Assembly (NCBI GenBank): GCA_913009825.1
Contig: CAJVYQ010000057.1
Span: 1-35,513 of the forward strand
Length of the DNA: 35,513 bases
Reading direction: 5' to 3'
From: an uncultured Deferribacteres bacterium
Lineage (GTDB): Bacteria; Zhuqueibacterota; JdFR-76; DREG01
The notes beneath the pieces are model-generated. The model made no database searches and was not told the DNA's origin. It saw only the letters and a program-made list of their open reading frames with translations. The position numbers and the translations under genes were made by a program. Below, one piece after another: positions 1-35,387 of the stretch (position 1 is the first letter of the stretch; every line of letters begins with the position of its first letter).

Positions 1-124
1 CTAAGACATGAAAGCATCCTGAAGGATGCTATCGTAAATAGGACGCTTTAGCGCCCTTTCATTTCTTAGCCTTGTCGTTCACGGCAAGGCGAAAAAGATT
101 GAAAGAAAACACCTGAATAGTTAC
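1..124. mobile_element. Right end of an IS66-type miniature element, highly structured
   Basis: Positions 112-124 read CCTGAATAGTTAC, the inverse of the GTAACTATTCAGG terminus seen at four other places in this window, so 1-124 is probably the right part of such an element whose left end lies outside. The interior can fold: arms 1-14 and 56-69 pair with one mismatch around hairpins at 13-30 (AGCATCC/GGATGCT) and 41-56, and 70-91 forms another (GCCTTG/CAAGGC). No ORF is visible. The element assignment rests on one terminus only. Confidence 0.6.
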
Positions 125-340
125 AATTAATTTTAATATCACGCTTGCCACAGTTCGACTCTGCTCACAATGGCTTCCTTTTTAAGCCGGTCTGGGCCCT
201 TCGTCAAGCTCAGGATAAACTCAGTCGGAAGACTGATTTCGTTAAAAAATTCAACTGATCATTCATAAAATAAACTTTTTGAGTCATTCATGCCTGTCCG
301 CATCGGGATTATTTTCAGTGGAGAAACCGTTACTGAAAAC
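125..340. other. Non-coding gap with a hairpin module and a post-stop stem-loop
   Basis: No gene is visible. Around 150-235 there is a sequence (TTCGACT, then GTCAAGCTCAGGATAAA, then AGTCGGAAG) that recurs inside the element at 33678-33822. Directly after the stop codon of the FHA gene, TTTTCAGT (312-319) and ACTGAAAA (332-339) form an 8-bp stem. It lacks a clear U-tract on either strand, so it is at best a weak or factor-dependent end of the operon. Confidence 0.5.
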
Positions 341-12480: not shown

Positions 12481-12579
12481 GTATCTACTCAGGTAGCGTA
12501 CGAAAACACCCTCCTTGAGGGGGGTAAGGGGGGTGTAAAACAAGTTCTAATATAATCGTATCATATCCTTAATAGTTAC
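12481..12579. mobile_element. Degenerate IS66-type miniature element between cheW and cheA
   Basis: The left end GTATCTACTCAGG (12481-12493) and right end CCTTAATAGTTAC (12567-12579) match the GTAACTATTCAGG terminus with two and one mismatches. Flanks TTTATTTT and CGTATTTT agree in 6 of 8 bases, as expected of an aged 8-bp target duplication. The interior is a GC-rich hairpin (ACACCC with GGGTGT). It lies in the untranslated gap between cheW and cheA and may reduce read-through between them. Confidence 0.65.
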
Positions 12580-22636: not shown

Positions 22637-22793
22637 AAACCTTAATTGAGCGATTCCGAACTTCAGACTATCACCTATCGAATGAAATGTCATTCAGTAG
22701 GAATCTTGTTATTTTAATGCTTATAATCAAAAAAATTCCTCCCCGCCTGCTGCGGGCAGGCTGAATGGCAGAAAAATCGTTCAGTTAAGGAAA
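22637..22793. mobile_element. Miniature element, third repeat family (copy 1)
   Basis: The left terminus AAACCTTAATTGAGCGATT (22637-22655) and right terminus AATCGTTCAGTTAAGGAAA (22775-22793) are inverted repeats with few mismatches. The interior contains a strong hairpin around 22742-22762 (CCCGCCTGC/GCGGGCAGG). No ORF. It separates cheR from the response-regulator remnant. Flanks contain AAATAA on the left and AAAATAATAA on the right, not clear enough to call a target duplication. Confidence 0.65.
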
Positions 22794-22877: not shown

Positions 22878-23268
22878 TTATTCTAACTCGATGGTCAGAT
22901 CCCGAATACGCTGTTCCAACAGGCCACAATACATTTTACTTTCAAATTTCGATTACGCGTATTGGCTGCACCGGTTACATGATTCATTAACTCTTCCGGA
23001 TTTAACGGTTTTGCAATAAAACCATGAGCTCCATTTTCAATTATTCTCTTGCCCGGGTTAAACCCACCTGCTCCAGTAATTATAATTACAGGGATATCCG
23101 AATATTCTTTTGAGATATAGTTTTGCAATTCAATACCGGTTTTTCCCGGCATCACCACATCGCAGAGCACCAAATCAAACTCTTTTTTTTGCAGATGATC
23201 GCAAACCTCGGAATAATTGGCAGCTTCATTAAAATCATACCCGTGTTTGCTGATAATCCTGCTAATTA
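22878..23268 (-). pseudogene. Response-regulator (receiver) remnant, 5'-truncated and frameshifted
   Basis: The frame can be read from the edge of the repeat element: A-L-I-S-R-I-I-S-K-H-G-Y-D-F, then F-D-L-V-L-C-D-V-V-M-P-G (phospho-aspartate site) and F-I-A-K-P-L-N-P-E-E-L (lysine site). The first dozen or so receiver residues, including the start codon and the D-D acidic pair, are missing; a TGA lies in frame inside the element. Near 22930 the frame breaks: the open frame ends at 22895 in a non-receiver-like tail, while the next frame gives C-G-L-L-E-Q-R-I-R-D-L-T-I-E-L-E ending at 22878. One lost base in an A-run explains it. A TTG at 23173 is the only internal start candidate, so no working receiver is expected. 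Confidence 0.85.
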
Positions 23269-23269
23269 G

Positions 23270-23421
23270 TGCCTGAACAAAAACTATGAAATAGCATCTG
23301 CAGTGTCATTCCTGCGAAAGCAGCCTGCCCGCTGCAGGCAGTGAATCTAATGAAAACAATATGTTATGGATTCCCGCTTTCGCGGGAATAACAGAAAAAG
23401 CGAGTTCTCGGACAGACACTA
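23270..23421. mobile_element. Miniature element, second repeat family, abutting the ruined receiver gene
   Basis: The left side reads TAGTGCCTGAACAAAAAC (from 23267) and the inverse of the right side TAGTGTCTGTCCGAGAACTC. Both are bordered by CTAATTAG, a palindrome (23262-23269 and 23419-23426), which is either a target duplication or part of the terminus. The interior has hairpins: CAGCCTGCCCGCTGCAGGC and ATTCCCGCTTTCGCGGGAAT. Simple removal of the element plus one CTAATTAG does not restore an N-terminus for the receiver, so a deletion accompanied or preceded the insertion. Confidence 0.7.
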
Positions 23422-23434
23422 ATTAGTTCAAACT

Positions 23435-24011: not shown

Positions 24012-24113
24012 GTAACTATTCAGGCTCAGTATTCCTTGTAGAACGAGACGTTGTCTCGCTAAGGCGATTCAGCGAATCGCCCTACATAAAAGAAAACAAT
24101 GCTGAATAGTTAC
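24012..24113. mobile_element. IS66-type miniature element with perfect 8-bp target duplication
   Basis: The left end GTAACTATTCAG (24012-24023) and right end CTGAATAGTTAC (24102-24113) are perfect inverted repeats. CTAAATAC stands directly outside both (24004-24011 and 24114-24121), a perfect 8-bp duplication. IS66-family elements have ends starting GTAA and make 8-bp duplications, which fits. The interior has two hairpins: CGAGAC-GTT-GTCTCG and GGCGATTC-AGC-GAATCGCC. No ORF. It inserted just past the terminator of the soluble MCP gene. Confidence 0.85.
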
Positions 24114-24121
24114 CTAAATAC

Positions 24122-24160
24122 AATTAAATTGCAGGCCGATAAAACTTTATCGACCTGCAA
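24122..24160 (-). terminator. Intrinsic terminator after the soluble MCP gene
   Basis: TTGCAGG (24129-24135) pairs with CCTGCAA (24154-24160), and CGATAAA (24137-24143) with TTTATCG (24146-24152), leaving a 2-base loop. On the minus strand the stem is followed by TTTAATT. It starts 20 bases after the MCP stop codon, so the MCP is probably its own transcription unit and cheW needs another promoter or read-through. Confidence 0.8.
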
Positions 24161-24179
24161 TTGCACCATTAATTTTCCA

Positions 24180-25460
24180 CTAAAAATTTTCAAACTCATC
24201 ATCGTCAGCGGCGCCGCCATTATGTCCATTGCCTAAATCCAAATCGACTGTAGAATGCAAAGCCACAGAGTCTTTTTCATACACAGGCTTCGATTTTGCT
24301 TTGCTTTTTTTCTTTGGAGTCACTTTGGCAGTAGATCTTTTTGCACCATTTCTCTTTATGGAACTGTTCTTAGCAACATTAAAAAATGAAATGGTATCTA
24401 ACAATTGCTCCGACTGGCCGGAAAGTTCTTCCGCCATGGAAGACATTTCTTCAGAACCGGCAGCATTCTGCTGAATAACCTGATCCAATTGATTGATAGC
24501 TTTGTTGATCTGTTCTGCGCCGGTATTTTGTTCGGCGCTGGCGGCGTTAATTTCCTGAACCAGTTCCGCCGTCTTTTGAATATCCGGCACTAATTTTTCT
24601 AACATCTCACCGGCTTTTTCAGATACTTTAACAGTGGATGAAGACAATTCACCGATCTCTCCGGCGGCTTTCTGGCTGCGTTCTGCAAGTTTACGCACTT
24701 CGGCCGCAACCACAGCAAAACCTTTACCATGCTCGCCGGCTCTTGCCGCTTCGATGGCTGCATTTAACGCTAACAGATTGGTCTGCCGTGCAATCTCTTC
24801 AATAATGCCTATTTTATCCGCGATATCTTTCATGGCGCCAACAGCTTCAACCACAGCTTTGCCGCTTTCTTCTGCGTCTTGTGCGGCTTTACCGGCAATT
24901 TTATCGGTCTGCTGCGCATTATCGGAATTCTGCTGAATATTGGACGCCATCTGTTCCATAGATGAAGACGCTTCTTCCACAGAAGCCGCCTGTTCGGTAG
25001 CTCCTTCCGATAGCTGCTGAGAGCTATCACTTAAGCTATTACTGCCCAAAGCAACTTGGCTGGCAGCTGTTTGTATCTCTTGCGCAAAGTTGCTCAGATT
25101 CTCGATCATGGAATTTATATTTTTCTTGATCTCGTTAAAATCGCCCTTGTATTCATCGGTGATCTTCTCCGGAATGTCGCCTTTTGAAATCCGGTCCACG
25201 TATTCGGCAGTCACGTTAATCGGTCCGACAAAAGCGTCAACCGTATCATTAATTCCCTGTACAATTTTGGCAAAATCGCCGGTAAATTTATTAACATCCC
25301 CGCGCCGGTCAAGTTTGCCTTGCACAATTGCATCGGTTAACATACCTACCTCAGATACCAGCTCCCCTACCTGTTTTTTAAATAGGTCATTCTCTTCCTG
25401 CAGTGCTGTGAAATTTTCCTGAGGGGCATCCTTAACATAATTCTTTTTTTTCCAAATCAT
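24180..25460 (-). CDS. Soluble methyl-accepting chemotaxis protein with aromatic C-terminal motif
   Basis: A 426-residue MCP without membrane segments. Residues about 20-125 form HAMP-like helical units ([15 protein letters not shown]; then [13 protein letters not shown]). The signalling hairpin follows, with tip [21 protein letters not shown]. After about residue 365 a flexible Lys/Ser/Thr-rich linker leads to an acidic end D-D-D-E-F-E-N-F. The last five residues, E-F-E-N-F, fit the x-[HFYW]-x-x-[HFYW] pattern of the CheR-binding pentapeptide on some MCPs. No PAS, GAF or other input domain is visible, so it senses something internal by unknown means. Strong AAGGAGG ribosome site. Confidence 0.95.
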
Positions 25461-25657
25461 ACTACCTCCTTTTTCCTGATATTAATTTTCCTTCTGCAAA
25501 AGCTGCGGCATTATAGTTTCCCTCTTATATTAAGGCCTTCATAATTGCTTCCATTCGGCCGGGCTAGCATAGTCAGACCGTTTGAAATATTCGTGAAAAA
25601 CTATTTTCACCTAAATACAGACCTATAAATTGTTTTTAATCTTGAACCCATAAAATG

Positions 25658-26299
25658 TCAACCCACTTTTCTAAAAATTTGTCCGTCGGCACTCGTCTGC
25701 TCGAACAGGTTAGAAAGTCCTTCGGGAAGCTTTTGCGTCTGTTCCGTGGCAAAAAAACCACCCGGTAACAAGACATCATAAAACATTCTGATAACTTCGA
25801 TTCGTTCCTTATATTTTATATGAAGCAATACATTTTTACACACAATCAGGCTATAATCTTTGCCGGCCGGTTTTAGTGTTAATAAATCATGTTTCTGATA
25901 ATGAAGCCGGTTTCTGAGGAGTTCTACAATTTGGAAGTGATCCGGCTTCCCGTTTTTTTGAAAATATTTCTTAAACAACTCGCGCGGAATTCGTTCCAGT
26001 TCCGCTTTTGGATAGAGACCGGTAACGATAATCTCTTCGAAAAGATTGCTGCCGTCAATATCGGTGGCATCTATATGGAGATTCTTAAAGACAAATCTGC
26101 CCATATTCTCGGCAAGCAGAATTGCTAAAGTATAAGGTTCCTGCCCCATGGCACAACCGGCATCCCAAATACGAATATTGCTTCTTCCCGAAATGATTGG
26201 GAAAATATGTTTAACGGTTAGTTCTAATGTATGTAAATCTCTGAAAAAATAAGTGAATGCCGTTTTTTTCCTTCCAATACATTTATAAAATAAATCCAA
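25658..26299 (-). CDS. Short CheR-like methyltransferase lacking the N-terminal CheR domain
   Basis: Up to 213 residues. It opens with a remnant of the CheR inter-domain motif (A-F-T-Y-F-F-R-D) and continues with a full SAM domain: I-W-D-A-G-C-A-M-G-Q-E-P-Y-T, D-A-T-D-I-D, and the C-R-N-V-I-Y-F-type stretch as V-C-K-N-V-L-L-H-I. The usual 70-residue helical domain that docks on MCPs is absent; compact CheR-like proteins of this form do exist, so it may be complete. The first start is a TTG (26299) lying in the T-run of an intrinsic terminator, with no ribosome site, so expression is doubtful. The frame stays open upstream to a TGA at about 26326, without ATG or GTG. It may be decayed at its 5' end. 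The soluble MCP follows after about 200 bases. Confidence 0.7.
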   Translation of the reverse strand: MDLFYKCIGRKKTAFTYFFRDLHTLELTVKHIFPIISGRSNIRIWDAGCAMGQEPYTLAILLAENMGRFVFKNLHIDATDIDGSNLFEEIIVTGLYPKAELERIPRELFKKYFQKNGKPDHFQIVELLRNRLHYQKHDLLTLKPAGKDYSLIVCKNVLLHIKYKERIEVIRMFYDVLLPGGFFATEQTQKLPEGLSNLFEQTSADGQIFRKVG

Positions 26300-26348
26300 A
26301 AAAAAGGCACAATCAGCTATCCTGAATCAGGATTGCCAATTGTGCCTT
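26298..26348 (-). terminator. Intrinsic terminator immediately upstream of the short cheR-like gene
   Basis: AAGGCACAAT (26304-26313) pairs with ATTGTGCCTT (26339-26348), with inner stem TCCTGA/TCAGGA (26320-26332). On the minus strand it is followed by eight T residues, a textbook intrinsic terminator. The TTG start of the next gene lies in that T-run. The stem's TTGTGCCTT-ACTA unit is repeated in tandem next to it (TTGTGCCTTCACTAGAAAA, then TTGTGCCTTTACTAAAAAA, to about 26382). Confidence 0.8.
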
Positions 26349-26613
26349 CACTAGAAAATTTTGTGCCTTTACTAAAAAATCCCTTTTGTATTTTCTCGAT
26401 AAGGCGGCTCATTCAAACTAAATGAGTTCCGATATTCAATTACAATATCGGGAGCTATAATAAAAAACTTAATATGTTTTCGCAATTTATTTTTTGACAG
26501 TCTTGGAAAAAATCGGAAGTTATTTTTCAGTGACCCCTAAGAATAATTAAATTAGGACAATTTAGTAATTTAAACTCAGTTTGTTTTGCGAATCCTTTTA
26601 TTTAATTACAATT
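26349..26613. other. Non-coding AT-rich gap
   Basis: Apart from the tandem TTGTGCCTT copy at its left edge, this stretch shows no ORF, no recognised RNA and no clear inverted termini. On the minus strand it is the upstream (leader) side of the terminator at 26298-26348, so a short transcript or leader RNA is possible. Confidence 0.4.
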
Positions 26614-26738
26614 TAATCCTGAATTGAGCGATTCTCTTATTTTTGAGCTTGTTTTTATTGCTAAATGGATTTTTATTTTTAAACTAAATCCGATTAGCGA
26701 TTCAGCGAATCGTCCTACAATCGCTCAATTAAGGTTTA
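26614..26738. mobile_element. Miniature element, third repeat family (copy 2)
   Basis: The left terminus AATCCTGAATTGAGCGATT (26615-26633) and right terminus AATCGCTCAATTAAGGTTTA (26719-26738) are inverted repeats matching those at 22637-22793. The interior includes GCGATTCAGCGAATCGTCCTAC, nearly identical to the hairpin inside the IS66-type element at 24012-24113, although the termini differ. No ORF. Confidence 0.7.
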
Positions 26739-29018: not shown

Positions 29019-29367
29019 GTAACTATTCAGCTCACGTCTGTCTGACACAGGCAGAAAACACACGAAACAATCGAATGATCTCATCTAACTTTTTTCCTGT
29101 TTTTTTTTTGAGTCTTTCGCGGGCTGCCTGAGTAGTGACAATACCGTAACACTTTAGTTTTTTGAACAAATCCGCTTCCTTTGCGCTCTCTGCGTCTCTG
29201 CGTTTTAAAGCGCCTGTTTTTTTAACGCAGAGACGCGGAGGGCGCAGAGAAATTGAAAAAATCGTCTGCCTGTTCAGCACGCGAATTACACGAAATCATA
29301 CGAATAGGACAAAATAGTTAACGATTCTCGTTTTTTAGCGATATTAGCGGGCAACCTGGATAGTTAC
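29019..29367. mobile_element. IS66-type miniature element with perfect 8-bp target duplication, 349 bp
   Basis: The left end GTAACTATTCAG (29019-29030) and right end CTGGATAGTTAC (29356-29367) are inverted repeats with one mismatch. ATCCTGTC directly flanks both sides (29011-29018 and 29368-29375). The interior carries a long inverted repeat, TTTGCGCTCTCTGCGTCTCTG (from 29180) against CGCAGAGACGCGGAGGGCGC (from 29227), around a 17-base loop. An 82-codon open frame across it is a product of this palindrome, not a transposase. Confidence 0.85.
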
Positions 29368-33677: not shown

Positions 33678-33822
33678 GTAACCATTCAGATACGCACGGC
33701 AATCACGCTTCGACTCCGCTAAACATGGCTATCAAAGATATCCTGAACACCTCGACAAGCTCAGGATAAATTTAGTCGAAGGCTTACTGCGTAACAAACA
33801 ACAAGCACAACTGAATAGTTAC
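33678..33822. mobile_element. IS66-type miniature element between the two dehydratase subunit genes
   Basis: The left end GTAACCATTCAG (33678-33689) and right end CTGAATAGTTAC (33811-33822) are inverted repeats with one mismatch. TCCAATC flanks both sides (33671-33677 and 33824-33830), 7 of 8 bases of the expected duplication (G/A differs). The interior pairs GCTTCGACT (33708-33716) with AGTCGAAGGC and includes GACAAGCTCAGGATAAA, the same module as at 150-235. No ORF. Confidence 0.8.
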
Positions 33823-35119: not shown

Positions 35120-35387
35120 AGCTTACCTATTTTTGTATGATGAATAATTTCAATTTAAATATCACGACTGATACGGAGACGGTGTAGTAATAAAAACTTT
35201 GAAACAGTTGTTTCTAAGAATTTCATCTGTCGGTAACACCCGGCTTAAGCCGGGTGTTACCGACAGATGAATACAAATGCTTGCGATTTTTTGGTAAACA
35301 ATTATTTTTGAACACTCGATAAGCGAGGTAGAATTTATACTTCAAATCCTGTCCAATCTTTTAAATAGAATAATTATCCCGTTTATT
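35120..35387. other. Leader/gap of the LeuC-type gene with a long perfect palindrome
   Basis: No gene. The main feature is a perfect 50-bp palindrome at 35222-35271: arms TTCATCTGTCGGTAACACCC plus GGCTT (25 bases) and their exact complement with no loop spacer. No T-run follows it on the minus strand. It could act as a cruciform or as an end signal for a gene to the right of the window, or be a relic of a repeat. Confidence 0.6.

Follow-up and report, generated by a model that had tools for sequence, protein, structure and literature searches.

Three MITE families of one bacterial genome, probably colonized by two unrelated mini-palindromic units

The SDRs of Nostoc punctiforme, reportedly described by Elhai et al. 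in Genome Research in 2008, are said to be structured units of about 20 nt that were recently mobile, that often lie within minitransposons, and that are sometimes nested in one another. REPs and REPINs with a GTAG tag are mobilized by RAYTs (PMC3733652; Bertels & Rainey 2011, PMC3116915). The layout of a REP within a longer palindrome has precedent (Di Nocera et al. 2013, PMC3733652): long palindromes of A. variabilis contain GTAG-15 dimers, and GTAG-23 is found within small palindromes, with hundreds of target copies, in T. roseum. The GC clusters of yeast mitochondria are short GC-rich palindromes that insert and amplify and are sometimes merged (PMC4478555). A literature search for nested MITE/REP mosaics was without result.

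The window, the whole stretch of 35,513 nucleotides that was analyzed, is contig C57 of a 123-contig assembly. It was studied within a sample of 820 kb (16%) of the 5.1-Mb genome, drawn in 20-kb stretches and numbering 41 with the window, to which loci from searches were added; since some stretches were picked for containing listed hits, sample densities are biased estimates for the genome. A total of 140 elements were called in the 820 kb and assigned to three end families, T1, T2, and T3 (56, 58, and 26 calls, respectively). T1 elements end in GTAACTATTCAG and have an 8-bp target duplication (TSD), which was exact in 23/56 calls in the sample (next best length, 3/56). T2 elements end in CCTGAATTGAGCGATT, with a 5-bp duplication of the form TNNNA that was exact in 32 of the 58 calls (next best length, 8), and T3 elements end in TAATTAGTGTCTG, with a 2-bp TA duplication in 19/26 calls. 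Exact ends number 369 for T1, 332 for T2, and 41 for T3 in the whole genome. The elements are short (clusters of 60 to 350 bp), noncoding, and multicopy, and their terminal inverted repeats (TIRs) and fixed-length target duplications are those of TIR-type MITEs. T1, T2, and T3 are three separate, otherwise ordinary TIR-type MITE families, each with several interior subfamilies. Our reading of the data, to which we assign a probability of roughly 85%, is that these families have been colonized by two unrelated, independently spreading mini-palindromic units, a GTAG-tagged REP and an 18- to 20-bp palindrome.

Each family has a target duplication of its own and therefore presumably its own DDE transposase. 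The duplications suggest that T1, T2, and T3 elements would have moved by cut-and-paste, by DDE transposases that are absent or unseen; no autonomous partner sharing T1, T2, or T3 ends was found. An IS4/Tn5-family transposase with a DruA-like N-terminal domain is present at L082:4728-7213 (G000:C7:24728-27213), with CTTAACATGTCCCTCATTATTTACTG inverted repeats. This element was considered as an autonomous T1 partner and rejected, because the gene lies between inner inverted repeats (CTTAACATGTCCCTCATTATTTACTG) within a T1 MITE, in the center of which the transposase element apparently inserted. The T1 ends had earlier been labeled IS66-type. Their GTAA-type ends and 8-bp duplication do fit an IS66-derived MITE but are not specific to IS66. 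PF03050 had 0 matches in this genome, while control genomes do match, and the name is to be dropped because no IS66 transposase was found.

As previously described, five T1-ended elements in the window have five differing interiors. T1-160 (1-124, minus strand) is cut by the contig end. A second element (12481-12579, minus strand) has a CCCC...GGGG interior between the ends GTAACTATTAAG and CTGAGTAGATAC, of which the right end was called and the left was read from the sequence. T1-102 (24012-24113, plus strand) has its GTAACTATTCAG inverted ends around a GTAG-REP doublet, with the 8-bp TSD CTAAATAC on both sides; this 102-bp unit, with exact TSDs, also occurs at L078, L080, L085, and L096. T1-348 (29019-29367, plus strand) is flanked by the 8-bp TSD ATCCTGTC, and T1-d (33678-33822, plus strand), with a CTTCGACT...GTCGAAG interior, is flanked by an 8-bp TSD with one mismatch (GTCCAATC/ATCCAATC). 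T1 ends enclose at least seven differing interiors, a multiplicity under one TIR that had been called unlike MITEs and that is ordinary for MITEs with a common transposase.

Several other features of the window were observed. Contigs C1, C3, C8, and C12, like the window itself (1-124), start inside 160-bp T1 copies or have a T1 end about 110 to 125 bases in, so near-identical 160-bp T1 MITEs appear to break the assembly. At 35222-35271, near the contig end, lies a perfect, spacer-less 50-bp palindrome (TTCATCTGTCGGTAACACCCGGCTT plus its complement) that may be real or an assembly artifact. Within T1-348, positions 29176-29252 hold a CTCTGCGTCTCTGCG-type inverted repeat with 34 matches (two mismatches or fewer) in the 820-kb sample. 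A GCAGG..CCTGC hairpin at 24131-24159, directly downstream of a chemoreceptor-like gene (24180-25460, minus strand), resembles a terminator or else a tagged palindrome that has decayed. The window had no match in Rfam.

Two T2 elements and one T3 element in the window share short hairpins with elements that have other ends. T2-A (26618-26734, plus strand) has an imperfect copy of the family duplication (TTAAT/TTTAT). T2-B (22640-22790, plus strand) has the same ends, and its interior is built on GTCATTC..GGAATC inverted arms. T3-a (23263-23425, plus strand) has the TA target duplication. Despite their unrelated termini, T1-102 and T2-A both contain GCGATTCAGCGAATCG(C/T)CCTAC, at 24064-24085 and 26697-26718; the GCGATTCAGCGAATCG-type 16-mer occurs 113 times across the 5.1-Mb genome, compared with 0 occurrences of its reversed control, so the sharing is not due to chance. 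CCTGCCCGC hairpins are likewise found both in T2-B (22742-22760), sister copies of which are empty paralogues of the site, and in T3-a (23324-23341). A third reported case, a CTTCGACT/CAAGCTCAGGATAAA module at 150-235, did not hold. Positions 154-227 (plus strand) match the interior of a T1 element (L074:18952-19107) at 84% identity across 74 nt, so the module is a T1 copy stripped of its ends. It is an end-less relative of T1-d and therefore no case of sharing across termini.

The preliminary description read such sharing as termini that capture and exchange hairpin cassettes, with ends and interiors assorting independently. The many interiors within T1 ends agree with that proposal, as do the occurrence of one REP under T1, T2, and Melioribacter-type ends and the movement of T1-102, its REP doublet aboard, by T1 ends with 8-bp target duplications. 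The grouping by termini and by interior was examined by trimming TIRs from the 140 elements, clustering the interiors at 60% reciprocal coverage, and comparing the families by BLASTN. All 14 multi-member interior clusters were single-family, and 696/696 within-cluster interior pairs had the same terminus family (maximum of 378 in 10,000 shuffles). Similarity between T1 and T2, T1 and T3, and T2 and T3 consisted only of the 23-nt GTAG REP, a 16- to 24-nt GC palindrome, and two T2 copies that lie nested within stretches with T1 ends. Because clusters never mix families, the interior of an element follows its termini, and no more than two short units are common to different families. Both units, moreover, are independent elements that are also present outside T1, T2, and T3, a finding that the preliminary description had itself named as contrary to its proposal; the palindrome lies within the interior and does not adjoin the termini; and one of the three cited examples is the end-less copy of the same family. 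Thus, recurrence of short hairpin units under unrelated ends and carriage of the REP doublet by T1 ends were upheld, but independence of termini and interiors and the swapping of interiors were not, and cassette exchange is very unlikely to explain the mosaics.

The first of the two colonizing units, GCGATTCAGCGAATCGCCCTAC, belongs to a known kind of element, the GTAG-tagged REPs. It is part of one T2 subfamily and forms an inverted doublet in the 102-bp T1 subfamily. On the opposite strand, the hairpin common to both reads TGTAG-GGCGATTC-gct-GAATCGCC, which is the GTAG tag and stem-loop of RAYT-associated REPs. In T1-102, REP b (24038-24060, plus strand; GTAG and AACGAGACgttGTCTCGCT) and REP a (24063-24085, minus strand; GTAG followed by the stem-loop GGCGATTCgctGAATCGCC) are inverse to one another in a REPIN/BIME layout. 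T2-A holds a single REP (26696-26718, minus strand), and inverted GTAG doublets are also found at L106:329-375 and in Melioribacter copies. The 24-mer at 24063-24086 has exact matches in three other genomes. It is present without T1 or T2 ends in BMS3Bbin03, a genome of the same order; in a Melioribacter MAG, it lies in elements with (AGAC)TGTGTGAAAATT ends and a second, inverted GTAG hairpin; and in an Ignavibacteriae MAG (L145, JACPVN010000403.1), it occurs as a GTAG pair within coding sequence. The L145 pair, at about 2754-2777, appears to lie within a gene, in frame, and the reading frame of this gene is similar to a secretion-sorting C-terminal domain (NYPNPFNPST-like). The absence of surrounding T1 or T2 ends in BMS3Bbin03 and L145 identifies the REP as an independent unit. 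In the 820-kb sample, 21 REP relatives lay outside MITE calls, some of them possibly decayed MITE copies.

Shared hairpins might also reflect convergence, that is, functional stem-loops (terminators, IHF/gyrase sites, or RNase E sites) selected separately in each family. Both units are GC-rich, intergenic stem-loops, and Di Nocera et al. (PMC3733652) place most REPs downstream of genes, as this explanation would have it. Against it, the AGC loop and the unpaired CCTAC tag are letter-identical over 23 to 24 nt across families and genomes, and the palindrome is missing from exactly matching sister sites. We regard convergence as extremely unlikely.

If the REP did colonize the MITEs as a mobile unit, past RAYT-type single-strand processing would have been followed by passive amplification with the host MITE. 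A truncated RAYT gene (L106:385-846) lies immediately downstream of the GTAG doublet, and its broken end bears a GTAG REP; the best NCBIfam model for this gene is NF047646, with a score below the cutoff. Two further RAYT-like genes in the genome (L106:1477-2052 and L108:1288-1860) also score below the curated NCBIfam cutoff. IS200 TnpA genes are present at L101-L103. We infer that RAYTs moved the REP, and likewise the order in which REP and MITE were assembled. No REP-less ("empty") T1-102 or T2-A backbone was found in the 820-kb sample, so the REP may have entered preexisting MITEs or, equally, the T1-102 and T2-A MITEs may have formed around REPs.

The second unit, the CAGCCTGCCCGC hairpin, is an 18- to 20-bp palindrome of the form CC(T/C)G(C/T)C(C/T)G-N1-5-C(A/G)G(A/G)C(A/G)GG, 19 bp long in 42 of 77 copies and 18 bp long in 25 of 77. 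It is a strikingly small inserting unit, and the hairpins of T2-B (22742-22760) and T3-a (23324-23341) in the window are copies of it. The 19-mer pattern has 153 matches here (both strands, some double-counted), and none of 81 genomes of the phylum has more than 4; the mini-palindrome has therefore expanded in this genome. It is mostly intergenic, with 10% of copies in long ORFs, though long ORFs make up 70% of the sample. Copies lie outside called MITEs in 46/77 cases; others are inside T1, T2, and T3 copies and in the GTAG REP loop, an SDR-like placement. Tandem arrays of a 19-bp GC-rich unit, GTCGGGCAGGCCCGCTGCA, are also seen in T2-type elements (L065:16774-16889 and L067:13228-13276).

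Clean paralogous insertions were sought in a blind scan for inserts of 10 to 120 bp whose 12 + 12 exact flanking bases are contiguous elsewhere. Many 18- to 20-bp inserts were recovered, and most of the nontandem ones were the mini-palindrome. When each 36-nt junction was compared with other sites (6 mismatches or fewer), a paralogous empty site lacking exactly the palindrome was found for 29/76 copies, several with 36/36 identity, and for 0 in four controls in which the deleted segment was shifted by 12 or 30 nt; the 29 sites overcount independent events, as MITE copies with the same inherited insertion were tallied separately and at least 2 (L084:4211 and 4229) belong to a tandem array of the palindrome. 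Such precise filled and empty sites are those of an SDR-like, very small mobile element. In one pair, GGCGATTCAG^CGAATCGCC of the T2-A copies corresponds to GGCGATTCAG-CCTGCCTGTGCAGACAGG-CGAATCGCC at L063:11435, with the insertion in the REP loop. In another locus, a single T3 element holds two palindrome insertions (L100:9066 and 9098). The junctions are explicable without target duplication. They were G^C, G^G, or C^C in 82/120 strand-counted cases (68%), a preference that depends on the boundaries that the CC..GG pattern imposes.

Palindromes are prone to recombination, and recombination or gene conversion between MITEs, within short shared palindromes, could have moved the hairpins without transposition of the palindrome. 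The existence of tandem arrays of the 19-bp unit (as at L065:16774-16889) is compatible with this. However, empty and filled pairs differ by exactly the palindrome, with both flanks intact, on several unrelated backbones, and the palindromes that lie outside called MITEs (46/77) also argue against exchange between MITEs. We therefore consider recombination unlikely as the origin of the distribution and favor insertion of the palindrome as a unit.

Under insertion as a unit, the mini-palindrome would enter the loops and arms of MITE hairpins cleanly and with no duplication of the target, for the most part in intergenic DNA. Most likely, the hairpin, either as single-stranded DNA or as an RNA copy, would be copied into a nick or a single-stranded hairpin region; a single-strand or RNA-templated route is suggested because it agrees with both the insertions in hairpins and the missing target duplication. 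More tentatively, the CC..GG palindrome could represent a class of autonomous, ultra-short mobile elements of bacteria. Such an element would insert precisely, with no target duplication, and would prefer G^S where the DNA of other mobile elements is single-stranded or forms hairpins; its route would be either RNA-templated or a single-strand one like that of Y1 transposases/RAYTs. We consider this less likely than not. If true, few known DNA units that insert would be smaller.

Colonization of MITEs by two smaller units replaces the idea of cassette-capturing termini with a layered picture, in which MITEs probably serve as landing sites and amplifiers of much smaller palindromes. The precise 18- to 20-bp empty sites offer a clean system for asking how the smallest repeats move, a question that dates from the description of REPs and Nostoc SDRs.

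How do these elements compare with known systems? Like prokaryotic TIR-type MITEs (reviewed in PMC10969869), the three families have TIRs and fixed-length TSDs, lack genes, measure 60 to 350 bp, and are intergenic at high copy number; they differ in that all three bear secondary palindromic insertions and are otherwise ordinary. The REP resembles RAYT-mobilized GTAG REPs and REPINs in having GTAG at the base of a 19-nt stem-loop, in its inverted doublets, in its intergenic location, and in its co-occurrence with RAYT-like genes, one of which has REPs on its edges. Here, in contrast, most sampled exact hairpins lie inside two TSD-forming TIR MITE families and are amplified passively by them, and the RAYT adjoining REPs is truncated. 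In yeast, GC clusters (GC42, for example) exceed the mini-palindrome in length and have AG or ACT direct repeats at their flanks (PMC4478555); the mini-palindrome shows no consistent duplication. The nearest parallel to the mini-palindrome is the Nostoc SDRs, which it resembles in its size of about 20 nt, apparent recent mobility, embedding in minitransposons, and occasional self-nesting; it differs in sequence and host and in being an 18- to 20-bp near-perfect palindrome with CC..GG ends. We view Nostoc SDRs and yeast GC clusters as functional parallels and do not claim membership of the mini-palindrome in either.
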